DNA from: Zygnema cylindricum | Taxonomy: Eukaryota > Streptophyta > Zygnematophyceae > Zygnematales > Zygnemataceae | Reading direction: 5' to 3' | Assembly: GCA_037447655.1 (NCBI GenBank) | Contig: JBBHKE010000913.1 | Span: forward strand, 62,001 to 126,000 | DNA length: 64,000 nucleotides | In this document: one piece after another, positions 31,241 to 57,540 of the stretch | How positions within the stretch are numbered: position 1 is the stretch's first letter | Layout of the letters: every line of letters starts with the position of its first letter | Translations under genes and position numbers: made by a program | The notes under the pieces: generated by a model | Databases searched by the model: none | Told to the model about the DNA's origin: nothing | Seen by the model: only the letters and a program-made list of their open reading frames with translations

Positions 31241-31975
31241 CCTCACCCGTCCACTCCCTATTCCCCAAAACCGTTTCTCACATAGAGCTCCTATCATCCT
31301 ACTTTCCAAGTATATGAAGCCTGATCCATTGAATATGGGCACCCTAGATGGTGGTCCCATAACGTGCAACTCTGAGACCTCCATAGGACCTGAGAGTAAG
31401 CAGCTCACACGAAGCCTTTAGGGTAACCCTGACCCCTTTGTCTTTCAGCACGAATAACTGCCACCCTGGCAAACAAAAACTCGGATCACATTCACCCATG
31501 TGAAGGCAAGACTCGACTGAGTCGATAGCAAAAAGAATCTCTAAGTTTGTTCCATTGAGCTGTAAGTTATGGAGGGTGAAAGTTGACCTTTTGTATAGAA
31601 GCTCTGTGGGAGAGAGGGTCATATCTACCAAATTTTTGAAGTCATATCTCTCTCACAAACTATATCTACCGATGTATAGAACAAAACATATTACTCTTCC
31701 GTACACACAAGTACAGTTGCTAGTGTATTTTCTATTCGTATAATGTACGACATGGCTAAAATGTCGACACGTGGTATATCCAGATTTGCTCATTTAATCC
31801 CTGGAGATTTTGCGATCCAATGTCATTATGCCACGTGTCATCCGATATGGCGATGACCAAAAACCGCCGAAATCCTCTTCCGTGATCTTGGCATTCATTC
31901 CGACCGTCCGATTTTAATGCAGATTAAATCGTAGCTGTAATAAATACTTGCGCGGTATTTGTTTCAGTGTGCTCT
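31241..31975 (-). mobile_element. Inverted copia-1 type fragment: 5' gag plus 3' part of its LTR
   Basis: On the minus strand the LTR part (31975 down to 31365) ends TTGCA and is followed by CGTTATGGGACCACC, then gag coding MGPPSRVPIFNGSGFIY and on to FWGI near 31260. The start ATG lies at 31384-31382, 20 bases before the LTR end. The first 400 or so bases of the LTR are missing. Confidence 0.75.
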
Positions 31976-33420: not shown

Positions 33421-33933
33421 GTATCCGTTTCATATAGTACATTAAAATCGTACAAAAACTGTATCTATGCATTACGTATCTATATCCCGTTAAATGAACT
33501 AATCTACGTGCAACAATAAATATTCATCAAACCTCATATATCTTATCATTAATCCTAGACTTGTAACAAGATTAAAACAATGTATGTCTAATAAACCTGA
33601 GGTACGTCCAAAGCCTAATTGATACTTGCCGCAATTAGAGCAGTGAACACTACTTTATAATGCGCTAAACTACAAACATATCTTTCTCAAAAATTTACAA
33701 ACATACGTCCGTACAAAAAGTGTTACTGATGCTTAGTCAACATCAGTCATATATGTCCAGTTGACCATGGTAGTACAGTGCGAAACTCCTGAGTATGTGT
33801 TGGTAATTAAGTATTCGACACGGAGTGCTTAAGTCATTTGTGGTCCCCGCGTGAATCGCGTCCTTAATAGTGTGAACCTCCAAAAATATCGGCAAACGCC
33901 GTCGGCCCTTCAAATGTACCATGAACTACTTTG

Positions 33934-34004
33934 TGTTAAAAACACTAGATTTAGGGGGTATTTTCTAGGTCTGAATAGATTAAGTAAAAGCGCAAGCAGT
34001 CTGC
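33934..34004 (+). mobile_element. First 71 bp of a copia-2 LTR, interrupted by copia-1
   Basis: Begins TGTTAAAAACACTAG and shares TATTTTCTAGGTCT with the complete LTR of the same family at 47537. The copia-1 element is inserted after TCTGC, and the copia-2 LTR resumes at 40462. Confidence 0.75.
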
Positions 34005-35060
34005 TGTAGAAAGTAATGGTCTTTTAAAGTATTTTCTAGGTCTAAATAGAAATAAGAAAGAAGCCGAGGCAGTCTACATCTAACTTCTCTCTCCAACTCT
34101 CAAACTTGTTGCAATCACTGAGAAATTGGAGAGGGAGCTAGAGCCATGGCTACCTAGGCTATCCAGAGGTTTACGGGAAAATATATTTTAGTTAGGGGTT
34201 TAATTTACCAAAAGATATTTGCCGGCCACAGGATTTGATCATGGTACCTATCGGCCGATAGACAGCCGGTAGCCGATAGCCTTAGCCGTTAAGTCTAGAA
34301 GTAGTGTTACCTATTATAGGGTTGGATAATTATTTAAACATTTATACATAGAAAAGTTCATTTAACTATAACTGATTACGGGAGACATATATCTAGTAAA
34401 TGTAAAATTACGGATACCGGTACGGATAAGAAACTAATACCGCGCATTTATTTCTTTAGTGAAACGAATACCGCGCATGTATTTATTACGGCTACGATTA
34501 AATGTGAATTTAATCGGACGGCCGGAATTAACGTCGAGATCGTGGAAGAGGATCTCGGCGGTTTGTGGTCATCGCCACATTGGATGACACGTGGCGGAAT
34601 GACATTGGATCGCGGCATCTCCGAGGATTAAGGGAGCGAATCCGGACAAACCACGTGTCGACAATTAGGCCATGTCGTACAATGGTCGTACATAAAGTAC
34701 ACCGGCAGCTGTACTTTTGTGTACGAAACTAAAATCTGATTGGCTCCGTACATCAATAGATAGAGTCTGTGAGAGAGATAGGACTTAGAAAAATTAGAAA
34801 ATAGGACCCTCTCTCCCAAAGAGCTTTTGTGCAAAAGGTCAACTTTGACCCTCCATAACTTACTACTCAGAGGAGCAAATTCAGAGATTCTTTTTGCTAT
34901 CGACTCAAGGGAGTCTTCTTTTCACAGGGGTGAAGTTGGTCAGAGTTTTTGTCTGCCAGGGTGGCAATTATTTTTGCTGAAACATAAAGGGGTCAGGGTT
35001 ATCCTAGAGGCTTCTTGGAAGCTATCCACTCTGAGGACTTATGGAGGTCTCAGAGTTTCA
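34005..35060 (+). repeat. 5' LTR of copia-1
   Basis: TGTAGAAAG to GAGTTTCA. The last 20 bases (35041-35060) start with ATG and encode the first residues of Gag, MEVSEF. A hairpin GACTC-AAGG-GAGTC lies at 34902-34915. A 68-codon open frame in another phase (from 34827) is shared by related LTRs. Confidence 0.95.
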
Positions 35061-36317
35061 GGCTATGGGCCCACCCTTTAGGGTACCAATCTTTAATGGA
35101 ACTGGCTTTGTATACTGGGAAAGTATGATGATCGGAGCTCTATGTGTAAAAAGGTTTTGGGGGATAGTGAGTGGACGGTTGGGGCGTCCATCAAGTCTTG
35201 GAATTCCTCCAAGGTTTGGAGGAAGCACATTCACCAGAAAAGAGGATCCACCTTCAACGGAGGAAACAAAAGAAGGAGAGGTGGTGGATAAAGGAAAGGA
35301 GAAGGAGGCGACCACACTAATAACAACTAGTTCAGCATTCATGTCACCTATTTCGAGGAACGAGGAGAATGATACTGAAACGTGGGACTTCAACAATATG
35401 GCGGCAAAGCACTTCATCCTACGCCATCTCACTCAAGGACTTGCATGTCCTCATTTGTAGGTAGAAAGGGCATTCGATCTTTGGAAGTCTCTCATAAAGA
35501 TTTAACAAAGTGGTACGATTCAGCAACAACAGTTGGCTGATCAGAAAGTTAAGGAGTATGTATACAAAGGGGGGAAGATGTTGGATTTTTGCAATGAGCT
35601 TGCTACACTCTTCATGGAGCTAGAGAGTGCGGGAAAAGATTTTAGTGAAAAAGAAAAGGTTAACTGTTTATCGATGAAGTTACCTGATGAGTTCGAGAAC
35701 ATAGTCAACCGTGTGCAGGACTTGCCGGACTCAAGGTGGATATGGAACTCAATGGTAGAGATGATTCTCGTTCGGGAGAATACGATTGAGATCCGAAGGG
35801 GAGGAAAGAGTGGCCAAGCCTTGGCAACAGCGACTGATTGGAGGAACAAGGATTTCGGAAATTGGTCGAAAACTATGGGGGGAGGGAGCAGAAAAAACAG
35901 ACCGACGAGTTCAGACCAAGGGCTCCCAAAGGTTTATGTCATTTTTGTAAGAAACCTGGGCACTATATGGCAGAGTGCACTAAGTTAACCGAGCTTCGGT
36001 TAAAGGAGGGGCAGACCGGTGGTACCCCGAGAGGAAAGAAAAAGGCCCTTGTGACACAAGTACATGAGGCGGAATCCGAGGACGAGGACGATGAGCTCCT
36101 TTTAGATGAGGAGTTGGAGGCGAAAAACGAGGTCGAAATACCACGAAGGCAGAAATGTGCTTACGGTGGATTGAAAGGTGAAGCAAGTTGGATTCTTGAT
36201 TCAAGTGCCTCCATGCACATGTGTAAGGATAGGCACCTGTTCACTAAGATAAGAAATATTCCCACCGTAGAGATAGAGTACGGGGATGGGAGGATAGTCA
36301 CCACTACTCTTGTATGA
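35041..36317 (+). pseudogene. Copia-1 gag and protease, broken
   Basis: Forms the capsid and cuts the polyprotein. The N-terminal part (35041-35460) reads MEVSEFQAMGPP, then VPIFNGTGFVYWESMM, and stops at 35458-35460. The central GAG domain resumes at about 35530 with LFMELESAGKDF and LPDEFENIVNRVQ. After a frame change near 35900 comes the zinc knuckle CHFCKKPGHYMAEC (CX2CX4HX4C). The protease site follows as WILDSSASMHMC, with Ser-Ser in place of the usual Thr-Gly or Ser-Gly. A stop at 36315-36317 separates it from the integrase region. Related to the copia-2 gag at 41367. Confidence 0.85.
35061..35075 (+). promoter_or_regulatory. Half-tRNA-iMet primer binding site overlapping gag
   Basis: GGCTATGGGCCCACC directly abuts the LTR end. 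Fourteen of 15 bases are complementary to the anticodon-side part of plant initiator tRNA-Met. It encodes AMGP within Gag. No 3'-end-type site (TGG plus acceptor complement) is seen between LTR and gag. Drosophila copia is known to use a cleaved 5' half of this tRNA in the same way. Confidence 0.75.
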
Positions 36318-36326
36318 TCGGTCGAT

Positions 36327-39300
36327 TTGAAAGTGTTAGTAGAAGGAAAGACATCCATAGTAACATTCTCCGATGTATTGTTTATTCTGGAGTTGAACAA
36401 AAACCTCATCTCTACATCCGTATTAGATGATAAGGGTTTTTTTACTAGCTCTAGGGAAGGAGTCTTTACTACTAGTTTTGAGGAGGATGTCTATTTCATT
36501 GCTGAGAAAAGTAGCCATGGGATGTTTAGGCTGGTTTTAAGTAATGAAAAGAAGAAACCTTATTATGGTGGTGTTCATGATATTATGATGTGGCATAAGA
36601 GGCTTGGGCATGTGAATCTAGACAAGTTAAGAGAGATGAAAAAGATGGGAGTGGTGGAAGGGATTAAGTTTAGTGAGAATGATAATATAAGTGATTGTAG
36701 TGGATGTGCTCAAGGTAAAACACATAGATTACCCTTTCCTAAAACAACCACCTATAAGGGGGAAAAAATTCTAGATCTAATACACACAGATATTTGGGGA
36801 CCAGCTAAAGTGCCCTCACCGGGGGGGAAGAGATTTATGATGACTATCACTAATGATTGGTCTCGGTATTCCCGAGTGTATTTTTTGAAAAACAAGTCCG
36901 AAGCTCAAGACAATATAAAGCATGGAGCGAAAAACTTCATGAAACTCCAATCAAGAGAATAAGGAGTGACAATGGTGGAGAGTATACTTCTAACCAATTT
37001 GAGGATTTTCTGAGGGAAGATGGGGTCCAACACCAAAAGACAGTTCCAGAAAACCCGGAACAGAATGGGGTAGCTGAAAGGTTAAATAGAACACTAAGTG
37101 ATAGTGCTAGAAGCATGTTGTCAGATAAGAAGATAGGAAAAAGGTTTTGAGCAGAAGCAATGAACTATGCTAATTACCTCAAAAATAGAGTTCTTACTTT
37201 AGCTATAAAAGATCAATCACCTTATGAGAGATGGACAGGCCGAAAACCAGACATATCTCACTTAAAGGTTTTCGGCAGTCAAGTATTCAGTCTAGATACA
37301 GATCGGTCTAATTAGAAGCTAGATCATAAAGGAAAATCGGGATACTTATTAGGATATGATAAGGATGTTAAAGGATATAGAGTTTATGATCTAAAAAGGG
37401 AAGATATAATCATAGTAAAGCATCTAGTAGTTATGGATGAAGGAAAGTCTGTGGATCCCTTCAAATATACAAAGTCAGTAAAAATCAGATTTGAGTCAGA
37501 AAATTTCGATGACTTTGAGCTCCCTAACTATCGAGGTTTTAGAGAAGATGACATTCTTGTAGATACAAATCAGACCGAAAAGGACTCGGCTTTGGAAACT
37601 CCAGTGACAACTCTACCCGAAGCGGAAGACGTGGTGGAAATTGATTCGGAATCAAAGGATAGGGGAGAAGCCGAGTTTGTTTGAAAGAATCCACGAGAAC
37701 CATCTATTCCGGCCTCAGATTTTGAGGGGGGAAGGAGAAGTAGCAAAAGACTACAAGAAAAACAGGTTAATAACAAGGTAACTAAACTATCTCATCAAGG
37801 TGAACCTCAAACTTATGGAGAGGCGATGACTTGTCCAGAAAGAAACCGGTGGAAGACAGCCATCAATGAGGAGATAGCCTCAATTATGGCAGCCGATACT
37901 TGGGAGCTGTTGGATTGTCAACCTAACCGAAAACCAATCGGTTGTAAGTGGGTTTTCAAATTAAAATTGAACCCAGATAACACAATCGAGCGCTACAAGG
38001 CCCGATTAGTGGCAAAGGGATTTACACAAAAAGAGGGAATTGACTACGAGGAAACCTTTGCCCCGGTGGTCAAATTTCCCTCCGTCTGCATACGTCTCAG
38101 CCTGGCAGCAGCGGAAGACATGGAAGTGCACCAGATGGACATCAAGACAGCCTTTTTGCATGGAGAATTGGAAGAGGAGATCTTCATGCGACAACCCAAA
38201 GGGTTTGTGGAGGAAGGAGAGGAGAGTAAGGTATGCCGGCTGATTAAATCTCTTTATGGTTTGAAACAGGCGCCTCGACAGTGGAATAAGAAGCTTGATG
38301 AGTTTCTTACCGGTCTGAATATATCCGGATCAGCTCAGATCACTCAATCTATGTTTTCCAAGATGAGGAAGGTATTATATTTATTGCAATTTATGTTGAT
38401 GATTTGCTTGTCTTAAGTAAATCAATGGAAAAAATTAATAAACTGAAAACGGATCTTAAGGGGAGATTTGAAATGAAGGATATGGGGGAAGCAAAATATA
38501 TTTTGGGAATTCAAGTAGAGAGAGACCGAAAAAGAAAAATTATCAGATTGACTCAAAAGGAAGCAATAGGGAACATGCTTGAAAAATTTCAAACGGATAA
38601 AGCTAATAGTTGTACAACTCCAATGGAGTTGAAGAAGGGAAGTGAGGGGAGTGAGGAAGGAGGAGTCATAGTCTTAGCCGAGGAATTATCTCCTGAAGAA
38701 CAGAAGTTCATGCACACTATTCCTTACAGGCAAGTAGTGGGAAGTCTAATCTATTTTATGAATTGTACCCGGCCGGATTTAGCTGCAGCTGTAGGAGTAT
38801 TGAGTAGAAGTCTAAATGCTCCCTCTAAGAGGGATTGGGAGGCAGCTAAGAGAGTCCTTAGATATTTGTTAGGAACTAGGGATCTATGGTTGCATTTGGG
38901 TGGGGAGAATACTGACATCACTATTTGGAGTGATGCTAGTTTTGGTGATGCACCAATGAGGAGATGCACTTCTGGATATGTATTATATGTCGGTGATGGG
39001 GCTTGCTGTTGGAGTAGCAAACAGCAAAAAGTTGTTGCTCAGTCCACCATGGAGGCTGAGTATATGGCCTCTTGCTCTGCTGTAAAAGAATTGGTGTGGG
39101 TCAAGTCTTTGCTTGGTGAGCTTGGTCACCTTAAGAGTGGTGTGCAGAAATTTTTTTGTGATAATCAGGCAACAATCGCTATTTCTGCCAATCCTAAACA
39201 TCATTTTAAAGCTAAACACATGGACATTAGACTCAGCTTTGTTAGAGAGAAAGTAGAAAACAAAATAATCAGCTTAGAGTACCGACCAGATAGTGAGATG

Positions 39301-39387
39301 GTAGCAGATATGATGACCAAACCTGTGCCTTCCCCTAAGCTAATTTTCTGCAAGGAAAAGTGTGGTTTGAAATTAAAGATTGACTAG
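36327..39387 (+). pseudogene. Copia-1 integrase, reverse transcriptase and RNase H, broken
   Basis: Copies element RNA into DNA and inserts it. The GAG-pre-integrase zinc finger reads MWHKRLGHVN and CSGCAQGK (36590-36720). Integrase core: LIHTDIWGP, RSDNGGEYTS and PEQNGVAERLNRT (the D,D,E residues), followed by SPYERWTGRKP. RT: WKTAINEEIASI, GCKWVFKLKLN, YKARLVAKGFTQ, QMDIKTAFLHGELEE, LYGLKQAPRQWN. The YVDDLLVLS box sits at about 38391-38417, across a frame change between two long frames. RNase H: WSDASFGDAPMRR, STMEAEYMA and the final DMMTKPV. Stops near 36960, 37148, 37313 and 37682 break the frame. The last 1 kb (38404-39387) is open throughout. Confidence 0.93.
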
Positions 39388-39400
39388 AAAATAAGGGGAG
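39387..39400 (+). promoter_or_regulatory. Polypurine tract of copia-1
   Basis: GAAAATAAGGGGAG lies directly before the 3' LTR and after the last codon (stop at 39385-39387), the usual place for plus-strand priming. Confidence 0.85.
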
Positions 39401-40456
39401 TGTAGAAATTAATGGTCTTTTAAAGTATTTTCTAGGTCTGAATAGAAATAAGAAAGAAGCCGAGGCAGTCTACCTCTAACTTCTCTCTCCAACTCTCAAA
39501 CTTGTCGCAATCACTGAGAAATTGGAGAGGGAGCTAGAGCTATGGCTACCTAGGCTATCCAGAGGTTTACGGGAAAATATATTTTAGTTAGGGGTTTAAT
39601 TTATCAAAAGATATTTGCCGGCCACAAGATTTGATCATGGTACCTATCGGCCGGCAGACAGCCGGTAGCCGGTAGCTTTAGCCGTTAAGTCTAGAAGTAG
39701 TGTTACCTATTATAGGGTTTGATAATTATTTAAACATTTATACGTAGAAAAGTTCATTTAACTATAACTAATTACGGGAGACATATATCCAGTAAATATA
39801 AAATTACGGATTCCGGTACGGATAAGAAACCAATACCGCGCATTTATTTCTTTAGTGAAACGAATACCGCGCATGTATTTATTACGGCTACGATTAAATG
39901 TGAATTTAATCGGACGGCCGGAATTAACGTCGAGATCGCGGAAGAGGATCTCGGCGGTTTGTGGTCATCGCCACATTGGATGACACGTGGCGGAATGACA
40001 TTGGATCGCGGCATCTCCGAGGATTAAGGGAGCGAATCCGGACATACCACGTGTCGACAATTAGGCCATGTCGTACAATGGTCGTACATAAAGTACACCG
40101 GCAGCTGTACTTTTGTGTACGAAACTAAAATCTGATTGGCTCCGTACATCAGTAGATAGAGTCTGTGAGAGAGATAGGACTTAGAAAAATTAGAAGATAG
40201 GACCCTCTCTCCCAGAGAGCTTCTGTACAAAAGGTCAACTTTGACCCTCCATAACTTACTACTCAGCGGAGCAAATTCAGAGATTCTTTTTGCTATCGAC
40301 TCAAGGGAGTCTTCTCTTCACAAGGGTGAAGTTGGTCAGAGTTTTTGTCTGCCAGGGTGGCAGTTATTTTTGCTGAAACACAAAGGGGTCAAGGTTATCC
40401 TAGAGGCTTCTTGGAAGCTGTCCACTCTGAGGACTTATGGAGGTCTCAAAGTTTCA
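39401..40456 (+). repeat. 3' LTR of copia-1
   Basis: Same length as the 5' LTR. It differs at scattered positions, for example TGTAGAAATT versus TGTAGAAAGT. The hairpin GACTC-AAGG-GAGTC is at 40298-40311. Confidence 0.95.
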
Positions 40457-41386: not shown

Positions 41387-42505
41387 ACTTATGGGCCCAC
41401 CCTCTAAGGTGCCCATCTTTAACGGATCTGGGTTCATTTATTGGGAAGCCATGATGGTAGGGGCTTTGTGTGAAAAACGATACCGGGGTATTGTCAAGGG
41501 ACAAGTGAAACATCCATCTCAGGGAATCCCATCAGGGTTTAGTGGAGTGAGGTTTTTCTGCAGCAACATCTACCCCAACGGTAGAGGCAGACGATAGGGA
41601 TTGCAGCGTGTCCAAACAAGGGAAAAAGAAAGAGACACTTCTCACTTCTAACGCAACGGCACTCGGAGCGCCTGCCATAAAGACCGAGGAAAACGATATT
41701 CAAACATGGGAATACACAAACATGGCTGCCAGACATTTCATTTCTCAGGCACCATACTGAAACTCTTGCAACCTCTTATCTTCAAATCTTAATGGCCGAG
41801 GTGTTGTGGGTGAATTTAGTGGAGATCTATAGAGCTACTACCATTCAATAGCTTAAGTTGGCCCAGTAAATGCTAGTTGGTTACTCTCACAAAGGGGGGA
41901 AAATGTTAGATTATTATAATGATCTCTCTTGTTTGTATATGGAGATGGAGAGTGTCTGATGGACAGGTATAATGAAGATGAAGGTCAACACCCTCAACAT
42001 GAAGTTGCCTGATGAGTATGAGAAGATAGTGTACCGAGTGCAAGAAATGGATGACAGCTCTTGGAAGTGGAATACAGTGGTCTGGATGATACACCTGCAA
42101 GAAAACACTATTGAGATTCGGAGAGGAGGAAAAAGCATTCAAGCTCTAGCCGCCGGAACGCACCGGTGGGGGAAGGATTCAAGGAAGCCGTACAACACCT
42201 TTAAAGGAGAGAAAGATCAATCTGTAGCACCGAGGCCCCCAAAGGGTCTTTGTTATTTTTGAAAGAAGTTGGGACACTTCATAGCAAATTGTACCAAGCT
42301 GTTGGAGCAGAGGCTTCAAGAGAACCTTGGAGAGGGTACTTCCAAAGGAAAGAAGAAGGCACTTGTGGTCACAAAAGTGAAAGAGGAGACCGAGAAGGAC
42401 GAGTCCTCTGAGGAGGAGGATGGGGAGCTCCATCTTGATGAGAATCTGGAGGAGAAAGATATCCCTCGAAAACAGAAGTGTGTCACGAAGGATGGATCGC
42501 ATTGA
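41367..42505 (+). pseudogene. Copia-2 gag, broken and truncated
   Basis: Reads MGDTKLQLMGPP and VPIFNGSGFIYWEAMMVG, then stops at 41595-41597. It resumes near 41972 with MKLPDEYEKIVYRVQEMD and ENTIEIRRGGKS, close to copia-1. In the zinc knuckle the second Cys is replaced by a TGA stop (CYF-stop-KKLGHFIANC). An acidic tail ends at 42505, where the sequence switches to gypsy DNA on the opposite strand. The rest of copia-2 is missing. Confidence 0.85.
41387..41401 (+). promoter_or_regulatory. Half-tRNA-iMet primer binding site of copia-2, overlapping gag
   Basis: ACTTATGGGCCCACC follows the LTR end. From the third base on, TTATGGGCCCACC matches the complement of the initiator tRNA-Met anticodon-stem region. 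It encodes LMGP in the gag frame that starts within the LTR. Confidence 0.75.
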
Positions 42506-43335: not shown

Positions 43336-44147
43336 TCAATGCAGAGCCCTCAACGCGCCAGCTGTGGCAAACTCGTCAACACGATGAGAGGTTGTAGGGA
43401 CCTCATTAACAAAAAGAGAGGCATTGGGAACGCACTCCGTCGCCTCGGTGATCGGCGTCCGCATCGCGTCCATATCTTGTGACAAATCGGGTAAGTAGCA
43501 AGGTGCGCAGTTCTTCGAATGCTCTCGCATCGTCCTCGTATCCGCACCCTCTAAACCAAACATCTCGTTAGCATCCATTTCCACCACACGAAAAATATGT
43601 GGTGAAACATCAGTGTCGAAAGTATCGAACGATTGTCGTCTGAGGTACACATAATCGCCGACCAAGTAGGATTTCTATTGTGGCTTGTAACTGCCACCCC
43701 GCATGGTGGCGAACCTTAAATTATCTCTACACTGGGCTATTTGCAAATTGTCAAAAGCCATAGGCATCTCCCGAGCGAAAAGCAAAGCACGTCCGGTAAG
43801 TTCTTCCAAAAATATGGCGTCAGACATTAGATGCAAAGGTAAACTTGCCGCTTTTTGAATATTATGACTGAGCAAAGGTGCTCGACCAAAGAAAATATAG
43901 TACAGGCTCAAATTGGCTAAGCTAGCCTGTATAGACATCTGGTATCCCATGGTGATATAGTCAAGGATTCGTCCCAGACGGAGATGTGTTTCTCCAAACA
44001 ATGCTTTCGGAGAGCCCGCTTGAAAGTCTGATAGCTCGTTCCGCCAAGCCATCCGCTTGTGGGTGATCAATACTCGTATGGCGGTGATCAACTAAAGCTT
44101 CATCCAACATCTCTTGAAAATCCCCTCAGAACGCAGTACCCTGGTTC
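43336..44147 (-). pseudogene. Gypsy integrase, C-terminal half
   Basis: Inserts retrotransposon DNA into the genome. Minus strand: LTNQGTAF (about 44152-44129) starts the second half of the catalytic core. Then come NLSLYYIFFGRAPLLS (about 43910) and QIAQCRDNLRFA (about 43730), ending with a tail VGDYVYLRR, SPHIFRVVEMDAN and LEGADTRTMREHSKN (43665-43510). The tail resembles the small beta-barrel that follows gypsy integrases. No chromodomain is recognisable. The N-terminal half is on the far side of the TRIM insertion. Confidence 0.8.
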
Positions 44148-44205
44148 GTAAGTGTTAGATTTCCTAGAAATCCGGGATTCGGCATGTCCCACACTTGGGA
44201 AAATT

Positions 44206-44276
44206 GAGCCGGCCAGGGTTCGAACCTGGGACCTTTCACTTCAGCTGCGAACGCACTACCACTGTGCCACCAGCTC
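44206..44276 (-). ncRNA. tRNA-like sequence in TRIM LTR, copy 1
   Basis: The 71 nt on the minus strand fold into a full cloverleaf: acceptor GAGCTGG with CCGGCTC (7 of 7 with one G-U), D stem GCAC with GTGC, anticodon stem TTCGC with GTGAA, T stem CCAGG with CCTGG around TTCGAAC. A box TGGCACAGTGG and B box GGTTCGAACCC fit the Pol III consensus, and TTTT follows 3 bases after the end. The anticodon loop AGCTGAA would give CTG (Gln) but has G where tRNAs have U33, so use in translation is doubtful. Confidence 0.8.
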
Positions 44277-44424
44277 GATGTTGAGACTGGCGGGTCCGTA
44301 CCCATCTATTCGGGCGGCTCGAGTATGGATATTTCCATATTCTACCCCGTATTGGACCGGCTTCACGTGCCAATCCAACACCCCCCCTCACGGGAAAGCC
44401 GGTCAAACCATCCGCAATCCCGCT

Positions 44425-44437
44425 GGCTCCGATACCA
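44425..44437 (-). promoter_or_regulatory. Primer binding site of the TRIM (initiator tRNA-Met 3' end type)
   Basis: Minus strand TGGTATCGGAGCC begins directly after the LTR. It is one base off the complement of the plant initiator tRNA-Met 3' end (TGGTATCAGAGCC). The second internal region has TGGTATCAAAGCC at 44912-44924. The opposite edge (44381-44390) reads TGAGGGGGGG on the minus strand, a polypurine tract. Confidence 0.85.
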
Positions 44438-44490
44438 TGTTAGATTTCCTAGAAATCCGGGATTCGGCATGTCCCACACTTGGGAAAATT

Positions 44491-44561
44491 GAGCCGGCCA
44501 GGGTTCGAACCTGGGACCTTTCACTTCAGCTGCGAACGCACTACCACTGTGCCACCAGCTC
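44491..44561 (-). ncRNA. tRNA-like sequence in TRIM LTR, copy 2
   Basis: Identical over all 71 bases to the copy at 44206-44276. The LTR is broken off exactly at the 5' end of this tRNA-like sequence, where copia gag DNA begins. Confidence 0.8.
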
Positions 44562-44755
44562 ATCACGATTCCGCTCGTCACCGCCGTTCCTCTCATCACG
44601 CTTCCGCCAATCACCACCAGCTGAAAATGCATTGACCCTGTCCTTTCCCCTACGAAGCTCCAAAGTGCTTTCCTTCACAAGAATTATCCCCATGGTAAAG
44701 CTCCAAGTCCATGAGGAGCCATCCATTGCCTGCATACGACAAATTATGTTTTCGT
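44562..44755 (-). pseudogene. Copia gag fragment trapped inside the TRIM
   Basis: On the minus strand it reads ENIICRMQAMDGSSW and ESTLELRRGKDRVNAFS, aligned with ENIVNRVQDLPDSRW and ENTIEIRRGGKSGQAL of copia-1 Gag but clearly from another relative. It is about 65 codons long and has no start or end of its own. Confidence 0.8.
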
Positions 44756-44769
44756 GCGGAGGTTCTTAC

Positions 44770-44867
44770 TGTTGGATTGGCACGTGAAGCCGGTCCAATA
44801 CGGGGTAGAATATGGATATTTCCATATTCTACCCCGTATTCGACCGGCTTCACGTGCCAATCCAACA
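44770..44867. repeat. 98-bp near-perfect palindrome of two TRIM LTR ends
   Basis: TGTTGGATTGGCACGTGAAG runs into a centre GGATATTTCC and returns as CTTCACGTGCCAATCCAACA. Only two of 49 pairs mismatch. It is a head-to-head junction of two LTR ends. The 14 bases to its left (GCGGAGGTTCTTAC) are an inverted copy of the gypsy sequence at 45153-45166, one base different. Confidence 0.9.
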
Positions 44868-44977
44868 CCCCCCCTCACGGGAAAGCCGGTCAAACCATCC
44901 GCAATCCCGCTGGCTTTGATACCATGTTAGATTTCCTAGAAATCCAGGATTCGGCATGTCCCACACTTGGGAAAATT

Positions 44978-45048
44978 GAGCCGGCCAGGGTTCGAACCTG
45001 GGACCTTTCACTTCAGCTGCGAACGCACTACCACTGTGCCACCAGCTC
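44978..45048 (-). ncRNA. tRNA-like sequence in TRIM LTR, copy 3
   Basis: Identical to the other two copies, while the surrounding LTRs and internal regions carry some differences (for example GATTCGG preceded by CCGG or CCAG). TTTT follows as in the others. Confidence 0.8.
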
Positions 45049-45157
45049 GATGTTGAGACTGGCGGGTCCGTACCCATCTATTCGGGCGGCTCGAGTATGG
45101 ATATTTCCATATTCTACCCCGTATTGGACCGGCTTCACGTGCCAATCCAACAATAAG

Positions 45158-47531
45158 AACCTCCGCAGAAGCCTTATAACCCACGAGAACATGCTCCTTA
45201 AAAGCAGCGGTGGTCAATTTACAGTCTTGTGGGAAAGAGCGACCACCTCTACCCACTTCCTAAAAAATTTTATCATTATCATGATGTATTGTTTCCCTTT
45301 TCGGGATAAAGGAAACAGTTCGGCGAGATCCACAGACCAGCGATAAAACAATCCTCTAATGGGCAATGGCTGTAGAGACACCTGCGGATTAGAGAAAGAG
45401 GTGCGTAACCGATCGCATATGGCGCAGTTGTGGAGAATGGCTGCCACATCTGATTGCATTCCAAGCCACCAATAGCGTGTCTATACAAGGCTCAAAGTGC
45501 GCTTGAAGCGCTCGGTTCGCCGGGGACATGCTGATGACTACTGTCCGCCAGCAATCGAACTAAAGATCCGCTGAGCCACAGATAATTTTTGGCTCGTTTC
45601 TTTACTCGGTCTTCCTCCTCGGCAGTAGTATTGGGCGGAAAGGTTTGAGAGGAGAGGAAGAGGATTAACGGGCCGTCGCGTCACGGATGTGTGGCCGGCC
45701 GAGGGTGAGGAATAGAAGAGAGACAATAAGTGATATAGGAACCACCCGACATGGCCAGTACCTCGTCCTCGTCGAAATCTTGCCGGACACTGTTATCGGT
45801 GGTTCGAGGTAGTGGATTCCTAGAAATCCCGTCGGCGTTGAAGCTTAACAAACCGGGCCGATGGATGATCTCAACGTCGTACTCTTGTAAAATTAAAGCC
45901 CATTGGGCAAGCTTCCGTGAAAGCTTATCGTTGGTCATCAACCAATGAAGGGGTTGATGGTCAGTTAGGAACGTGAATGGCTTGCCGTAAAGATAATGTC
46001 AAAAATGAACAATACCTCATACCGCGGGCAGACATTCACCCTCGTAACTAATGTAATTAGATTCAGCTCGGTTATTGCTCTGGCTGGCCTATGCCACTAC
46101 GTATGTCTCTCCCTTCAATTCTCTTTGCGTTAAAATGGTCGCTATGCCAAGCTTCCCGAAATTGGTTTGTAGGCAAAAGGGAAGCTTGTGGTTAGAAGGT
46201 CAAAGAATGGGAGCGCTAGAAAGGGTGATCTTCAATTTTTGAAACGCTTCTACTTGGGCGGGTCCCCAAACAAAAGGCATTTTTTTGAAAAGGTCATTAA
46301 GGGGAGAAGCAATCGTACTAAAATTAAATACAAATCGACGCTAATAATTGGCTTGTCCGAGAAAAGCCCTCAGACTAGTGAGATCGGTGGGGGCTGGCAG
46401 TTTGGTGATCACCTCTACCTTAGCTTTTAAGGGAGTGATGCCCTCAGCCAAAATAAAATGGCCGAGACAGGGCACTCCCTCTGCACCGAACGTACACTTG
46501 GCTAGTTGACACTTCAGCTCGACTTTATTTAAATCGGTGAGCACCCACTCAATATGACGGGCGTGCTTCTCCACCCTGGCGGAAGCGATTATCAAGTCAT
46601 CGATGTAGCACCGAGCGAATTTACATCCAACCAGCACGAAATCCATGACTTTTTGAAACACAGCTGGTGCGTTGTGAAGACCGAAAGGCATGACTGCCCA
46701 TTCCCACCGACCATCACTACCCCAAAATGCAATTTTATGTCGATCTCTTTCCTCGATTTCAATCTAGTTAAGCCCTTGGCGTAAGACAAGAATGCTAAAA
46801 AACTTTGCACCACCTACATGGTCAAATATTTCCTCCGCTAGAGGCATACGGTTGCGGTCTTGAACGGTCCGGGCATTAAGCTCTCGGTAGTCCCCACACA
46901 TTCTTCGCTCACTAAGATTTCCGTCGGAATCTTCTTTCCTAGGCATGATTGTAGGGGCGGCAAAGGTGGAATCCGACCGATAGATTAGACCGGCTTCTTC
47001 TAATTTTGCGCATCTTTAGTCCACTATCTCCGATTATATTTCACAAAGACGGTGTTTTGGCTTTAAGTTAGGTCGATCGTCTTCAAGGTCAATTAACATT
47101 TTGCAAGTAGAATGACATCTAAGGTCATTCATGGAGAAAGCAAACGCATCTATATGACTCGTGACTGCGTCACTTAATACTGCATGTTCCACCTTTGTGA
47201 GACTGGAACCGAACTTCCACTTCGGCATCTCAGGACTCTTGATAGTGAAAGCTTCCACGGCCTGAGCAAATGCAATTTGCTCATCGGCGATGAGGGAGTG
47301 GCCTAACTCGTATTTTACCAGTGTCTGCTGTATGCAGTTCACCTTGTGGTGCCAATTGGGAGTGGGATATGCGACTGTCCAATGTGGGACCAGCGAGGTA
47401 GAAGGGAAAGGGGTGGATAGAACAGCGGTATAGGTTGGAATCTCCCATGTTGTGACTAGGGCTAAAGAAATCGTAGATTGTGATATCCGGAGGAGACAAA
47501 GGCTGAGATAGAAAGAGAAAAACCTGAACTG
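45158..47531 (-). pseudogene. Gypsy reverse transcriptase, RNase H and integrase N-terminal half
   Basis: On the minus strand: a pre-RT stretch LTKVEHAVLSDAV (about 47210), then RT with MCGDYRELNARTVQ (about 46900), MPFGLHNAPAVFQ (about 46690), YIDDLIIAS (about 46605) and LRAFLGQANY (about 46350). RNase H follows with LQTNFGKLGIATILTQRE (about 46170) and TDHQPLHWL (about 45960). Integrase zinc finger GMQSDVAAILHNCAICDR (about 45460) and core WSVDLAELFP (about 45320) run up to EHVLVGYKASAEV, where the TRIM interrupts. RNase H and integrase after RT define the gypsy (Ty3) group. Several stops and frame changes make it inactive. Confidence 0.9.
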
Positions 47532-49693: not shown

Positions 49694-50180
49694 TTATATA
49701 AGTAATGTAGACTTATAGATGTGGTCCAATGTGTGAGAATCGATAAGGAAACCCGGTTCTGCAAAGAGCTCGGGTAAGGGACAACTACCCGGTATGATTT
49801 CTTCAGACGAAAGGGAGTGGAAAATTTCCTCCCCAACGGAGTTCCCCAAAAATGCGGGGAGAGCCGTAGCCAAGTGAGCCATTGTGCGCAAAGGTCGACG
49901 TGCTGAAATGAGAGGAAGGCAAATTTTGCACTCCAGAAAATGAGTCGGTCAATAAGAGAATATTTGGTCATGCAGGTCCACGCCACCGCCAATTCAAAAT
50001 ATACCATCTTGACCCACCAATCACTCATAATCGTTCTTTTTAGTGACCAACGCTTTGACGAAAAATTTCAACGGACTCATTTTCGGTTCCTGTCTGAAAC
50101 CGAAAGATAAACGGGTCCTTTGTGATTCCGAGGAACAGCTCCGTGGTCCCAGCCGAAGTTAGAAGGCGGGTAGCTGTCGC
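49694..50180 (-). pseudogene. Gypsy region between protease and methyltransferase
   Basis: Minus strand, in frame with the methyltransferase but ended by TAA at 49694-49696. Reads MAHLATALPAFLGNSVGEE and LPELFAEPGFLIDS. A parallel stretch MAHLASALLAFSGHTIGN is found in the rearranged piece at about 42840. I recognise no domain. Confidence 0.55.
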
Positions 50181-50465
50181 CTAAAGCTTCTCTGATGTCA
50201 AACCAAGCTTGAGCGCAAATTTGGATCCGAGGATCACGGGTTTGGCCCCAGTGTCCATGAGAGGAAGAGTGGGGTGAACACCGTTCACTGAGAATGACCG
50301 CGGAGAGTTATCAAGAAAACTGATATGGGGATAGAGATTACGACGCTCTTCCGTGGTAACCGGTTGAACCGTTGGGAGACTGCGGTTTAACCGTAGAGCC
50401 CTCAAATAGGCAGCTGCTGCGACCTCATCAACATGGGGAAGAGCTTTTGGTACATCCCCCATCAT
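50181..50465 (-). pseudogene. Gypsy aspartic protease
   Basis: Cleaves the polyprotein. VHPTLPLMDTGAKPVILGSK (minus strand, about 50280-50220) has the DTG active site intact, followed by FALKLGL in place of the usual A..LGL. Frame changes separate it from gag. The corresponding site is DTK in the second gypsy (55 kb) and DNG in the rearranged piece (43.2 kb). Confidence 0.82.
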
Positions 50466-50479
50466 CGCTAAAAGAATAC

Positions 50480-52357
50480 TTAATCACTCTTTCACCCGAT
50501 GAGCCTCATGATTAGTGCCATCCAATATGGTTTGTGCCTCCGCCGCAATGGTAGAAGTTGTTTCCGATAGGGGAGGCAAAGACTATTTTGCAAATGAGAG
50601 TGGGACACGCAAATTTTGTAATTTGCCCACTCGGTTATGGTCTGCTGAACCATTTTCAAATGTAGCCACTTGTTGTTCAACAGTGGAATCCGGAAGAGTT
50701 TGCTCGGCCAACGACGGCATGTGGACAACGGTCCTAGACATCCCAGTAAATTGGGGTTTCATTTCCGCCATGAAAGCTGCAAATTGCGATTTCATCATGG
50801 TCGCCATTGTGGCTTGAAGCTCGGCCTTCTCTCTCTCTCTCAACGGGAGATCTTAGAGGAGCTTTCTTCTTCTCAGTCTCCTTAGACGGAGTGACTGGTT
50901 TCGCGGAACAGGCCGGAATTCCGTCGTTTTTTATCTGATTTTGATAAGTGAAATTAGGGTCCTTGATGTGGCACCCATAGACATAATGTCTTTTTTGGTG
51001 GCAATGAGTGCAAGTGGCCGCCTTGTCAGGACACATGCACGCATCGTGCCCGATTTTTCCACATCGGAAACACATTCGGTTTCCAAAACTAACGGGTGGA
51101 GTTCCCATGGCTGGCATCTTCAAGGCCTATTGAGGGGCCATGGATTTTTAGGTGGAGGATGAGATGGCTTAGCCGGTTCTTTGTGAGGAGGTTTCGACCG
51201 CTCATGGGCGTCCCACCACGATGTCTGCATCTCATACTCTATCGCATATTGAGCCGCTTGCTCAAAGGTGAATTTCAGTCCATACATCTACCAAAGGTGG
51301 TTTTGGATAAACCTTTTTGATGGACCTCAAACCGTCCCAACAATTTTTGGACAGCCTCCGCATCGGACATTAGGTTCGTTAATGCCTCTTGCAAAGTTTT
51401 TCTCCGTGCTCGCAAGGCAAGAGCAGTTTCACCTGACCTACACTCGAAGTTCATCAACTCTTTGATCTGGACCGGGTTTTGCATCCGGTACTCCTCTTGG
51501 AGGATGTGAAACATGACTAAAAGAGGGTCACATAAAGGAATCATCCCCCTCGCTCTAGCAAGGACCCCCGCTCGGGCAGCCTCTACATACTGACGAGGAA
51601 CCTCGGGGATAGCAAGATACAACTCGTCCCCGTTAACATCTAATACAGCCTGTCTCGCAGTCTGGTAAAGGATATCCACCGGGCCGAAAACTTTTGGTAA
51701 CCCAGCAAACAGAGCCATGACCTCTGTCATCGCAAAAACATCCTCGTACTTGCGAGTGTAGAAAAAGAGGGCCGAACCACATAGGTATCGACGGAGAAGG
51801 GAAAAGGTGACACGGAGGTCAAACCTATCCTGATATCTAAAGGCTAGATCGCGCATTTTCGTGTCGTATAACATCCGGAATTGCGATAAAGACATGGTGT
51901 CCTTTAATCCGGAAAAGCAGAATTGCATCTTACCCATGGAATTCTTTGGAGAGCAAGCCATGTTGTAAAAGGGAAGATTCGCAGGTTTTGCCAAAGATGG
52001 GCTGGCAGGGAAATTACGAGTATGAGGAGTTGGAAAGGTTTCCTCCAGAACGTCTTTTTTGGTCCCCTCTATAATTGACCTAGATAAAAATGAGGACAAT
52101 GATAATATAGATATTAGACCAGACTCCACTAACAGCGATATGCAATCCACAATCGGATCCGATGTGGTCAACAATACGGGAAAATCTGAAGGATCTAACT
52201 GCGGAGGACAATAAAATGTACCACTTTGAGTGGACCCGGATTGATAAGGAAGGTTATCCAATCTGTGGGCATAAACCAAGGGGAAAACCTTGACTACAAT
52301 AGTGAAATGTTTCCAACGGCCTAACCAAGATGCAGCACGTGTTAGACTAATCCACAC
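50480..52357 (-). pseudogene. Gypsy gag with two zinc knuckles
   Basis: Capsid protein. The largest open part (52357-51275) contains FRMLYDTKMRDLAFRYQDRF, SLLRRYLCGSALFFY and EYRMQNPVQIKELMNFECR, the capsid-type helical region. After frame changes, two knuckles read CFRCGKIGHDACMC and CTHCHQKRHYVYGC (minus strand, about 51080-50965), both CX2CX4HX4C. A predicted coiled stretch with KAELQATMATMMKSQF follows (about 50830). The homologous gag of the second gypsy is at 55700-57540. Confidence 0.82.
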
Positions 52358-53551
52358 TAGTACAAAAAACTCACGCAGTGAGAATCAAGACTTAGTGGTC
52401 AGATCTAGCAAAAAACCGGAATACCAAAAACCTCTACCTTGCAAACAAGGGACATGGCCGAAGGGCCAGATCTTTAAACAAGCATTCAGCTATCCAAACA
52501 CCTTTCAGTGCAAGTCTAAAGCAACAGAGAGATAAAAACGCTTATGTAGGGCCACCCACGGCCAGATCTAGAAAGCAATTCCACACTAGATAGTCACAAG
52601 AAAACTTCAAGGCCACTCAAAGCCATATACCATGCAGGAAAACAGGAAAAATGCTAATGCTCAATCAAAAAGGTTCTTATCGAAACCGATCCACACTGGT
52701 CCCCTAAACGAGTGTCCAAACTATAACAGAACGCTCCTGCACCCGCAAGGCATCGGCTACTTACAAACACTTTTAATACTCTAGTGAGTACTAAAAGTGA
52801 ACCGGACTTGACCGAACCCATTCGGATTTTGGAGAGCTCCCGAATGTGATCCGCTTAGAAATCCGCTCCGAAATCCCGTCCGTAATCCGCTCCGAAATCC
52901 GCTCCGAGCAGCGTCTCTAAAAGTGACCCTCCAACAACCTCCGCGAGACTCCGGTAACGTGAAGATGTACACCATGGAATGTTAGAGGACCAGTTGAAGG
53001 ACAAAAGAATGTGCAAGTAGAAGACAAATAACAAATAGGAAACACAAATACGATAGATAGGAAAAGTCAGTTAGAATAAAGTCAGAGGCTGCTCAAACTT
53101 TAGATATACAGCCAAACTTGTGACCACAATAATCTAAAGCAACCAGCAAACCCTAATTCCACTTGAAAAACCCTAATTTTAACGCTAAACCCAAGTTCTT
53201 GAGGCCAAAAATCCAAATCTGCAGCCAAAGAATAGAAGGATTCCGACCTAAGGACTAGAATCAAAAGGAATAAACCCTAAATCTGCTGCAACCCTGATTG
53301 TGCAGTCAAAACCTTTAATCTGCATCTAAACCCTAATTTTGCAGATTAACCCTAAATCTGCAGATTAACCCTAAATTTGCTGCATAATTTAGGTTTAACA
53401 CTAAAGCCAAGAAATAAAGTGGCAGCAAAATAAGAGACAAAGATTGAAAAAAAAAGAAATAGCGGCAAACAAAAACAAAATGTTTTTTTTTTTTTTATAA
53501 AATAAAATTTATATTTTTAATAGAATTTTTTTAGTTTCTTTTGGACAAGAA
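52358..53551 (-). other. Gypsy 5' leader with clustered telo-box motifs
   Basis: The 1.2 kb between LTR and gag has no gene. AAACCCTAA occurs exactly at 53148, 53168, 53272 and 53328, with near matches TAACCCTAAA around 53347 and 53366, spaced by CTGCAG-like units. The second gypsy has the same cluster at about 58300-58510. Telo-boxes are known plant promoter motifs bound by TRB proteins. Confidence 0.7.
53538..53551 (-). promoter_or_regulatory. Candidate self-primer binding site of the gypsy element
   Basis: Minus strand TTCTTGTCCAAAAG begins at the first base after the LTR. It is perfectly complementary to CTTTTGGACAAGAA inside the LTR (54014-54001, minus strand). No tRNA-type site (TGG...) is present. 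In the second gypsy the pair is 58675-58662 with 59135-59122, again perfect. Confidence 0.75.
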
Positions 53552-54876
53552 TGCTAAGCCAAGAGGTACGCACTAGGCTCTTTGGTCTTTATCACATTCT
53601 CTAGAAGAGTTATCCCGTTAAGAGAGCAAAGCAAGAAATATCCCAACCGAAACAAGGGAAAAATCGAAATCGATCAAAAATACACTCTTTCCAAGCCAAC
53701 CGAAATACAAACAAGACAGACAAACACAACCAAACTGTCAAGCTGCCCGCGGAAGGCACATCAAGGTCCAAATGTGCTCCCCAACAATCTCGAATTCCAC
53801 ACTTCCACCCAAAAGACCAAGTTTGGAGGGAAACCTTCCTAGCGTGGCCTTAGGCCGTGTGGATTAAAAACGTGTACAAAAATACAAGGGCAAATATTCG
53901 TAACCTATCTACCCTCTATAGCTAGGTAGCAATAACAAATATAAAGCATGATCAATCGGTGAGAGAGAGAGTAAGAGAAAGCTCCGCCGCCAAGAGAAAA
54001 TTCTTGTCCAAAAGCTAAATTCTCAAAGTCTGAGAAGTAGCCTAAGTAGGGACTAAGCTACGCCTAGCACGAAACTAGCCTGAGTCTAGCCTACTTCATA
54101 TGAATGAAACTACTTAAGATGTTGGCCAATAGGCGGCCAACATCGTCCGCCGTACGTTTAACAAAATCCACCGTCGGAGGGTGAAAACCCTGCCTAACTA
54201 CATGTATGTGCGAACCTACATAGGTTCGCGACTTAAATGAATGAAGGGTATCAAAGCGTCGATAGTACTCCCAAAAATCGCGTTTCATCACCAAACGATA
54301 CTTCGCGTCCATACTTTAAAATCGTGTACCTACGCACGTAACGAAACTTATCGCACGAAATTCGTACACGTTCAAACGAAACATGCACGCGAATCCCGCA
54401 CATGTCCCAAATAGATAAATCGACGATATCGCGAACAAACTAAGCATGCATGCAAGAAATCGTGGCTGCATGCAAAATACTTTGCGCGCGCGTCAAATAA
54501 CGTGCGCGCTTGCCAAAAATTGTGCAAGTGTGCCACATATCGTGCAAGCGTGCCACATATCGTGCGTGTTGGCAACCGATACCATGTGGCATGACATCTC
54601 TCTCTCCCTCTCCCTCTCCCTCTCCCTCTCCCTCTCTCTCATAATCAAAACATAATTGTGCAAAACTTCTCCTCCTCCACCCAAAATCGAAAAAATAAAA
54701 GATAAAACGACTAAAAACAATGAACATGATTACATACACAAAAAAAGGAATCACAAAATTTTTTAAAGGATAAACCAATCTAAATTCAATTAAATCAATA
54801 GAAAATAACGACTAAAAATTATGAGTTTAAAGTGATAAAACAAACAGAAAAAAAAAAAAAAAAAAAAAAAAGAAAA

Positions 54877-55155: not shown

Positions 55156-55189
55156 TGACTTAACCCGCCAATTCGGAATATAATGTCTT

Positions 55190-57540
55190 GACCCACCAAA
55201 CACACATAATCGATACATTTAGTGACAAATGCTATGACGGAAATTTCAACGTACTCATTTTCGGTTCCTGTTTGAAACCGAAAGATGATCGGGTCTTTTG
55301 TGATTCATAGAACCGGTTGCGTGGTCCCAGCCCAAAGTTAGAAGGCGGGCAGCTGTCGCCTAAAGCCTGTCTGCTGTCAAACCAAACTTGGGCGCAAATC
55401 CGGATTTGAGGATCACAGGTTTGGCCTTAGTGTCCATGAGAGGAAGAGTGGGTTGAACACCTTTCACTAAGAATGACCCCCAAGAGTTATCAAGGAAACT
55501 GATATTGGGATCAAGATAACGACGCTCTTCCGTAGTAATCGGTTGAACCACTAAAAGACTGCGGTTTAATCCCAAAGCCCTCAAAGCGGTTGTTTCTGCA
55601 ACCTCATCAACAAGGGGAAGAGCTTTTGGTACATCCTCGATCATCGCTAAAAGAATACTTTATCGCTCGTTCCCCCGATGAGCCTCATGAATAGTGCCAT
55701 CCAATATGGTCAGTGCCTCCGCCGCGATGGTAGAAGTTATTTCCGTTAGGGGAGGCAAAGACTTTTTTGCAAATGAGAGTAGGACACGCGAATTTTGTAA
55801 TTTGCCCACTTGGTTATGGTCTGCTCAACCTTTTTCAAATGTAGCCACCGTTGTTGGACGGTGGAATCCCGAAGAGTTCGCCCGGCCAACGACGGCATGT
55901 GGACAACGGTCCTAGACATCTCAATAAATTGGGGTTTCATTTCCGCCATGTAAGCTGCTAATTGTTATTTTATCATGGCCGCCATTGTGGCTTGAAGCTC
56001 GTCCTTCTCTCTCTCTCTACGAGAGATCTTAAGAGGAGCTTCTTTCTTCTCAGTCTCTTTAGGCGAAGTGACTGGTTTCGCGAAACGGGCCAAAATTTCG
56101 CCGTTCTTTATCTGATTTTGATAAGTGAAATTAGGATCCTTAATGTGGCACCCATAGACATAATGTCCCTTTTGGTGGCAATTAGTGCAAGTGGCCGCCT
56201 TCTAAGCACACATGCGGGCATCGTGCCCGGTTTTTCCACATCGGATACGCATTCGATTTCCAGAACTAACGAATGGAGTTCCCATGGCTGGCGTCTTTTG
56301 GGGCCTATTTAGGGGCCATGGGTTTTTAGGTGGAGGAGGAGATGGATTAGCCAGTTCCCTGTGAGAAGGTTTGAACCGCTCATGGGCGTCCCACAACGAT
56401 GTCTGCATCTCATACTCTAACGCATATTGAGCCGCTTGCTCAAAGGTGAATTTAAGTCCATACATCTGGCTAAGGTGGTTTTAGATAAACCTCTTTGATG
56501 TACCTGAAAACTATCCCACAAATTTTTGGATAGCCTCCGCATCGGATATGAGGTCCGATAATGCCTCTCGCAGAGTTTCTATTCGAGCTCGCAAGGCAAG
56601 AGCAGTTTCACTTGGCCTACGCTCAAAGTTAATCAACTCTTTGATCTGATCTGGGTTTTGCATCCGGTACTCCTATTGGAGGATGTAAAACATGACAGAG
56701 AGAGGGTCACGTAAAGGAATGGTTCCCCCCCCTCTTGCTGGAACCACCGCTCGGGCAGCTACTGCATACTGACGAGGAACCTTAGGGATAGCTGGATACA
56801 ACTCGTCCCCGTTAGCATCTAATATAGCAAGTCTCGCAGCCTGTTGTGGGATATCCACTTGGCCGAAGACTTTTGGTAACCCCGCAAAGGGAGCCACGTA
56901 CTCCGTCATCGCAAGAACATCCTCGTACTAGCGAATGTATAAAGTGAGGACGAACCATGGAGGTATCGACCGAGAAGGGAAAAAGCGACACGAAGGTCAA
57001 ACCTATCTTGATATCTAAAGGCTAGATCCCACATTTCCGTGTTGTATAACATCCGAAAATGCGATAAGGACATGGTGTCTTTTCATCCCGAAAAGCAGAA
57101 TTGCATTTTACCTATGCATCCGTCTGAAGAGGAAACCATGTCGTAAAAGAGAGGATGCGCCGGTTGTGCCAAAGTTGGGCTAGCAGGGAACCTACAGTTG
57201 TGATGAGTTAGAAAGGTTTCCTGCGGAAGTCTCTTTCAGTCCCCTTTAGGTATGACCTAGATGAAAACAAGGACAATGATGACGTAGATGTTAGACCAGA
57301 CCTCAGTGACGGTGATATGCGATTCGCAACCGGATCGGATGTGGTTAACGATTCAGGAAAATCCTAAAGATGTAACTGTGGAGGACGATAAAATGTATCA
57401 ACTCGGGTGGACCCGGATTGATAAGGAAGGTTATCCCAATCCGTGGGCATAAACCAAGGGGAAAACCCTGACTACAATAGTGAAATGTTTCGAACGGCCT
57501 AACCAAGATGCTGCACGTGTCAGACCAATCCACACTCGTA
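55190..57540 (-). pseudogene. Second gypsy: gag and protease only
   Basis: Parallel to 50180-52357 throughout, for example GLPKVFGQVDIPQQAARLA (about 56870) and FTFEQAAQYALEYEMQTS (about 56450). The first zinc-knuckle Cys is lost (RIRCGKTGHDARMC) and the protease site reads DTK in place of DTG. Right after the protease, at about 55165, the sequence passes straight into the LTR, so methyltransferase, RT and integrase are missing. There is no polypurine tract at this junction, which points to deletion or recombination. Confidence 0.82.

Follow-up and report, generated by a model that had tools for sequence, protein, structure and literature searches.

A short LTR retrotransposon of Zygnema cylindricum with a tRNA-like gene in its LTRs fits the Helenus kind of TRIM

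Introduction

Within a 64-kb stretch of Zygnema cylindricum DNA (the window, i.e., the whole 64,000 nucleotides that were analysed), a complex of short LTRs raises the question of what kind of element would carry a tRNA-like gene in its LTRs, where its RNA would start and end, and which element would have mobilised it. The original prediction had described the locus as a TRIM whose LTRs each contain a tRNA-like Pol III gene, and had added that no TRIM with a full tRNA-like gene was known. This last claim was wrong, since TRIMs with tRNA-like LTRs were described from fungi, animals and one plant, Selaginella, under the name Helenus (TRIMp3; Kojima 2024, PMC10886601), so that the element does not represent a novel kind. 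The questions of its RNA and of its helper were approached through the architecture of the complex, its insertion site and its rearranged middle.

Results

Architecture of the TRIM complex

Self-comparison of the sequence placed the TRIM complex at 44153–45152, with both ends coinciding with an exact 228-bp LTR boundary. It contains two full 228-bp LTRs (LTR A and LTR C), a 124-bp partial LTR (LTR B) and two 57-bp internal regions (Table 1). Since the tRNA-like genes, the primer sites (PBS) and the polypurine tracts (PPT) all read on the minus strand, the minus strand was taken as the sense strand. Read along this strand, the complex runs from LTR C through internal region 2, a 47-bp LTR start, a 4-nt loop, the same 47 bp inverted, an inverted 15-nt target flank, a Copia gag fragment, LTR B and internal region 1 into LTR A. 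The 228-bp LTRs and the 57-bp internal regions with PBS and PPT had been predicted correctly. Given the 124-bp LTR B, the 47-bp LTR piece and the rearranged middle, the complex is no clean tandem array.

Table 1. Positions of the elements of the TRIM complex and its insertion site within the window
Feature	Position	Strand	Evidence or remark
Ty3-type pol remnant interrupted by the TRIM complex	43675–46763	-	Pfam on right side
Target-site duplication, left copy, GTAAG	44148–44152	.	
LTR A, full 228 bp, 3′ LTR on sense strand	44153–44380	-	LTR comparison
TTTT downstream of cloverleaf, LTR A	44200–44203	-	
72-nt cloverleaf of LTR A, with A box TGGCACAGTGGT and B box GGTTCGAACCC	44205–44276	-	ARAGORN, Rfam
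CAA triplet at –7 to –5 of cloverleaf	44281–44283	-	sequence
Internal region 1	44381–44437	-	PBS TGGTATCGGAGCCAG, PPT GTGAGGGGGGG
LTR B, partial (LTR positions 105–228), first base = tRNA nucleotide 1	44438–44561	-	124/124 identical to LTR A (positions 105–228)
TTTT downstream of cloverleaf, LTR B	44485–44488	-	
Cloverleaf in LTR B	44490–44561	-	Rfam 44490–44561; ARAGORN 44489–44562
Copia gag fragment joined to LTR B, in TRIM orientation	44562–44756	-	tblastn to Copia gags of the window
Inverted 15-nt copy of target-site flank by LTR end	44755–44769	+	inside inverted repeat I1
Inverted copy of 47-bp LTR start (fold-back; 4-nt loop 44817–44820)	44770–44816	+	inverted repeat I3; 0 differences to LTR A
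Further LTR copy, first 47 bp only, ends in hairpin sequence	44821–44867	-	1 difference to LTR A
Internal region 2	44868–44924	-	PBS TGGTATCAAAGCCAG at 5′ end, PPT GTGAGGGGGGG at 3′ end
LTR C, full 228 bp, 5′ LTR on sense strand	44925–45152	-	TGTTGG...CTAACA; 227/228 identical to LTR A (1/228 positions different)
TTTT, candidate Pol III terminator, LTR C	44972–44975	-	each LTR of the 513-bp model element has a single sense-strand T4 run
72-nt cloverleaf of LTR C	44977–45048	-	ARAGORN, Rfam 53.6 bits
Target-site duplication, right copy, ATAAG	45153–45157	.	4/5 identical to left copy

The two internal regions differ at 2 of their 57 positions, and the two LTR-plus-internal units at three positions in total, none of which lies inside the cloverleaf described below. 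A model unit (i.e., LTR-internal-LTR) measures 513 bp and has the properties of a TRIM: LTRs, a short internal part with PBS and G-rich PPT, a length below 1000 bp and no recognisable coding capacity. Long open frames cross the complex according to the ORF list, and the one frame searched, of 135 aa across an LTR, an internal region and the partial LTR, had no protein match at E up to 10. The primer sites share TGGTATC and AGCCAG around a variable GG or AA and presumably correspond to the 3′ end of plant initiator tRNA-Met (agreement at 14 of the first 15 and at 14 of 18 letters). Fungal and animal initiator tRNA-Met 3′ ends differ from those of plants.

Blastn with 44001–45400 as the query (E up to 0.01) found no further copies of the element elsewhere in the 64-kb window. 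Four exact LTR patterns had no matches in viral contigs, a collection that is not expected to contain such an element.

A tRNA-like gene in the LTRs

The only three tRNA genes that ARAGORN called across the window lie in the TRIM complex, on the minus strand, and Rfam family RF00005 matched each of the three cloverleaves over model positions 1–71 with 53.6 bits (E 9.9e-9; gathering 29). The predicted tRNA-like gene was therefore borne out by both tools in the three LTR copies (3/3) that span its position, and its sequence is indeed the same in all three. It does not occur in every LTR as had been claimed, because the 47-bp piece (44821–44867) is too short to contain it. The cloverleaf is 72 nt long and the TTTT starts 2 nt past its discriminator base. 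When 20,000 dinucleotide-shuffled LTRs were run through ARAGORN as an estimate of chance, a single one gave any tRNA call.

All stems of the cloverleaf are completely paired (acceptor 7/7, D 4/4, anticodon 5/5, T 5/5); since the three copies are identical, there is no covariation among them. On its own, the cloverleaf does not stand out in stability from its shuffles (z –0.66, with 48 of 200 as stable). The LTR as a whole is more stable than its shuffles (z –3.96, with 0 of 200 as stable).

ARAGORN labelled the gene as Gln on the basis of its CTG anticodon. Since the anticodon loop (AGCTGAA) has a G instead of a U at position 33, the cloverleaf should be regarded as tRNA-like and not clearly as a functional tRNA-Gln; a functional tRNA-Gln gene was ruled out by this G33, together with a body that is 53% identical to tRNA-Gln. 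Against a set of 16 plant tRNAs, presumed identities ranged from 52 to 68% (Gln 53%), with no clear winner as the parent tRNA.

Putative Pol III signals

The cloverleaf contains the box B sequence GGTTC and YGG, and its box A starts with TGGCA, i.e., four of the five positions of the usual Helenus motif TRGCY. The 513-bp model element has just two T4 runs in its sense strand, one per LTR, each directly after a cloverleaf. Among 100,000 mononucleotide-shuffled LTRs serving as a control for this placement, 1.1% had a TTTT in the 10 nt that follow the cloverleaf slot and 31% had one anywhere. Neither TATAWA nor AATAAA was found on either strand of the model element. In flowering plants, CAA is a common start-site motif of tRNA genes, being present within 10 bases upstream in 36–45% of them, and 67–73% have a downstream poly(T) (available text of PMC11700998). 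Judged from the letters, the A and B boxes, the CAA triplet, the T4 run and the lack of TATAWA and AATAAA make it plausible that the element would be transcribed by Pol III.

Probable insertion into a Ty3-type pol remnant

The remnant that surrounds the complex was recognised on its right side, where Pfam identified RVT_1 (46341–46763), RT_RNaseH (45681–45998) and the zinc-binding Integrase_H2C2 (45214–45480); the ORF on the left side (43675–44091) had no Pfam match. When the flanks were joined with one copy of the duplication, a single frame ran through the site (..AEVLTNQGTAF*), with its stop 7 residues beyond. We take the stretch AEVLTNQGTAF to resemble an integrase motif. Since the 5-bp duplications agree at 4 of 5 positions and the frame is kept across the joined flanks, the Ty3-type pol most likely received, through an integrase, an element whose two outer LTRs both carried the cloverleaf.

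A Copia gag fragment in the rearranged middle

LTR B and the 47-bp LTR piece are separated by a fragment of Copia gag, the target flank in inverted form and the inverted 47 bp. The 15-nt flank copy is identical to the target flank at 14 of its 15 positions (14/14 exact to 45154–45167, in inverse arrangement). Since the fold-back thus contains 15 nt of the element's own target flank, at least part of the rearrangement must have taken place after integration. The two 47-bp LTR starts and their loop form a 98-bp palindrome (44770–44867, 95.9% complementary), on which weak Rfam miRNA matches to two precursor families, below gathering, were also located (44777–44860).

When translated, the stretch 44562–44765 matched two Copia elements of the window in their gag (tblastn to 35692–35901 with E 9e-12 and to 42017–42157 with E 9e-11, covering 44565–44756), with 27 of 70 amino acids identical to a Copia gag of the window. 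The fragment itself had no Pfam match; of the two homologous gag ORFs, one matched the Pfam Copia gag family (E 1.2e-7) and the other was without a match. The junction between the gag fragment and LTR B is located at cloverleaf nucleotide 1, with an ambiguity of up to 3 nt as GAG can be assigned to either side. A uniformly placed junction would fall at most 3 nt from tRNA nucleotide 1 with a chance of 7/228 (3%), a figure that applies to a single case noticed post hoc.

Other repeats and putative elements in the window

The most complete Copia element of the window (34005–40456) is broken and has LTRs of 1056 bp that are 96.9% alike. Its primer site (GGCTATGGGCCCACC, from 35061) presumably corresponds to the anticodon region of initiator tRNA-Met and not to its 3′ end. 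Half-tRNA priming is known from some Copia lineages. Because this primer site is unlike that of the TRIM, the Copia element was rejected as its direct helper. A Copia RT/RNase H fragment of the window had 3073 protein matches, and none of the best 120 of these 3073 exceeded 43% identity.

The Copia LTR and its surroundings recur at 29745–31240, 33565–35060, 31241–31966, 34460–35184 and 39401–40456, in direct orientation with 97.8% identity over 1.5 kb and inverted with 81%, i.e., as a nested or rearranged LTR cluster. An ORF that was taken as a Ty3 gag had no Pfam match and no protein match at E 0.001. A 4.6-kb direct repeat (49986–54616 and 55165–59697, 86% identity) is retroelement-like by eye, and an interspersed repeat of ca. 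80–310 bp recurs at 367–774, 5025–5203 and 18435–18742 with 87–94% identity. Two overlapping minus-strand frames at 23204–24312, which we take to resemble a broken hAT transposase, had no Pfam match at E 0.001.

Discussion

A possible Pol III route for the genomic RNA

The reading that we favour, with a probability of roughly 0.7, is that the locus holds a non-autonomous LTR retrotransposon of the Helenus/TRIMp3 kind, whose RNA would be made by Pol III from the tRNA-like gene of the 5′ LTR to that of the 3′ LTR and which would rely on a Copia-type reverse transcriptase and integrase. Transcription by Pol III would begin in the 5′ LTR, either at the cloverleaf or within a few bases upstream, with a fraction of the polymerase reading through the weak T4 there. 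The RNA would then cross U5, the primer site, the internal region, the PPT and U3, and stop at the T4 of the 3′ LTR, giving a predicted transcript of 362 nt with a terminal repeat of 77 nt, in which the tRNA-like gene would constitute the repeat (R). Initiator tRNA-Met would serve as the primer, with the Copia-type reverse transcriptase and integrase acting in trans.

What mainly speaks against such a full-length RNA is the combination of a good cloverleaf and a terminator in the 5′ LTR: the T4 should stop much of the Pol III short of the primer site, and RNase P and RNase Z could cut the cloverleaf, destroying the full-length RNA. The G at position 33, a cloverleaf no more stable than its shuffles and the one-position departure of box A were likewise counted against the model.

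Weighing the alternatives

The Copia gag piece within the locus suggests that a Copia element probably served as the helper, or at least supplied a co-packaged template. If an RNA starts, or is cut, at the 5′ end of the cloverleaf, a first strand primed at the primer site would be completed at that point, and a misplaced jump onto Copia gag RNA would yield the junction observed. Both the gag junction and the position of the T4 suit an RNA that would start and end on the tRNA-like gene. A tentative extension, which we consider rather doubtful, is that the tRNA-like gene is the R of the genomic RNA and the gag junction the fossil of a cDNA that jumped onto Copia gag RNA packaged alongside; the junction would then identify the helper as well as the RNA start. 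Alternatively, and with a chance just short of even, the rearranged middle might stem purely from template switching at short matches during replication or break repair, in which case the junction would be uninformative on the RNA. The 15 nt of its own target flank carried by the fold-back do place that step after integration, the junction between Copia and LTR may share GAG, and a junction this close to nucleotide 1 has the above-mentioned chance of 3% and was spotted after the fact. Yet the gag fragment reads in the sense direction, and an LTR piece running from the tRNA 5′ end through the LTR end into the primer site is the expected product of a misplaced strong-stop transfer; moreover, cereal complexes with three LTRs within one 5-bp duplication were explained by template switching during reverse transcription (Sabot and Schulman 2007, available text of PMC1950507). 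An origin in replication or repair is compatible with Pol III transcription of the element, and would remove the junction argument only.

It might also be Pol II that makes the template, from a promoter that escaped recognition, with RNase P setting the 5′ end of the transcript at nucleotide 1 and the tRNA-like gene making a separate short RNA only. A T4 directly after the cloverleaf would stop Pol III, the fully paired stems suit RNase P and RNase Z, and RNase P cutting would account equally well for the start of LTR B at nucleotide 1. Nevertheless, we regard such a template as unlikely in view of the lack of TATAWA and AATAAA on both strands of the model element, and of the closest studied relative, Cassandra, whose RNA is said to extend from the 5S sequence in the 5′ LTR to that in the 3′ LTR, i.e., from and to its Pol III gene (Kojima 2024, in the available text of PMC10886601). 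Far less probable still is that the cloverleaf is no family trait at all, and that one of the LTRs of the locus received a single insertion of a tRNA or tRNA-derived SINE, which local gene conversion then spread. One locus forms the basis here, and its three cloverleaf copies are identical; yet none of the three LTRs that cover its position lacks the cloverleaf, and in the outer two, which lie within the 5-bp duplications (4/5 identical), it is found at the same position, arguing against an insertion into one LTR after integration. Reverse transcription itself copies one R/U5 to both LTRs. Furthermore, no duplication of its own was seen by eye around the cloverleaf, the three differences between the LTR-plus-internal units all fall outside it, and the described Helenus class has the same layout (PMC10886601).

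Comparison with known systems

tRNA-derived SINEs have a tRNA-like head with A and B boxes and no coding capacity. An assignment of the Zygnema element to these was ruled out by its LTRs, PBS, PPT and 5-bp duplication.

By layout, size, primer site and duplication length, the Zygnema element fits a further member of the Helenus type. It shares with Helenus the gene-less short LTR element (here with a 513-bp unit, within a published size range of 311–1263 bp) with tRNA-like A and B boxes in each LTR, a PBS and a PPT, and the 5-bp duplication (here 4/5 identical) of the fungal and plant members (PMC10886601). An anticodon that is not matched by the tRNA body is a further likeness, as the two disagree in many Helenus families according to tRNAscan-SE (PMC10886601). 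Fungal Helenus elements have primer sites for the anticodon loop of several tRNAs or for the 3′ end of initiator tRNA-Met, and for these fungal members only, Copia partners were argued from primer sites, duplication length and one internal-sequence match (PMC10886601); signs of a Copia partner are likewise present here. In contrast, box A reads TGGCA here vs. TRGCY in most members, a Copia gag fragment lies inside the present locus, and the Selaginella element Helenus-1_SMo has an LTR of 120 bp and an internal region of 85 bp vs. 228 and 57 bp in Zygnema.

Helenus is commonest in fungi and animals, and its defining paper included one plant, without transcript data (PMC10886601); the name also appears in the available part of a 2026 meeting report. 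The present plant-type member combines an intact cloverleaf, a T4 where an RNA end would be expected and a gag chimera at the tRNA 5′ end, and permits a testable statement on the RNA start and on the mobilising element. In addition, tRNA-like LTRs are a warning to annotators, as they put false tRNA genes into genome counts; in rust fungi, Helenus LTRs add such genes to the totals (PMC10886601).

Cassandra resembles the Zygnema element in having a Pol III gene with a terminator in each LTR, and, as far as the available texts go, a methionine primer site (PMC10853983) and arrays of three LTRs (PMC7215508). It carries 5S rRNA in its LTR, whereas the sequence here is tRNA-like: no 5S rRNA family was among the 3 Rfam matches at gathering or the 13 matches at E up to 5 in the 64-kb window. 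In a 2016 survey of 48 plant genomes, 5S was reported in no TRIM except Cassandra, and the word tRNA is absent from its main text, as far as the available version of the article extends (PMC4717578). Ajax, a nemertean TRIM with a partial 5S promoter (PMC10886601), similarly has the promoter of a small-RNA gene in its LTR, but is 5S-derived, of animal origin and without a cloverleaf. Finally, with the cereal template-switch complexes (as given in the available text of PMC1950507) the locus shares three LTRs within one pair of 5-bp duplications and near-identical outer LTRs; it differs from them in that its middle LTR is cut at the tRNA 5′ end and fused to Copia gag, next to a fold-back that includes the target flank.
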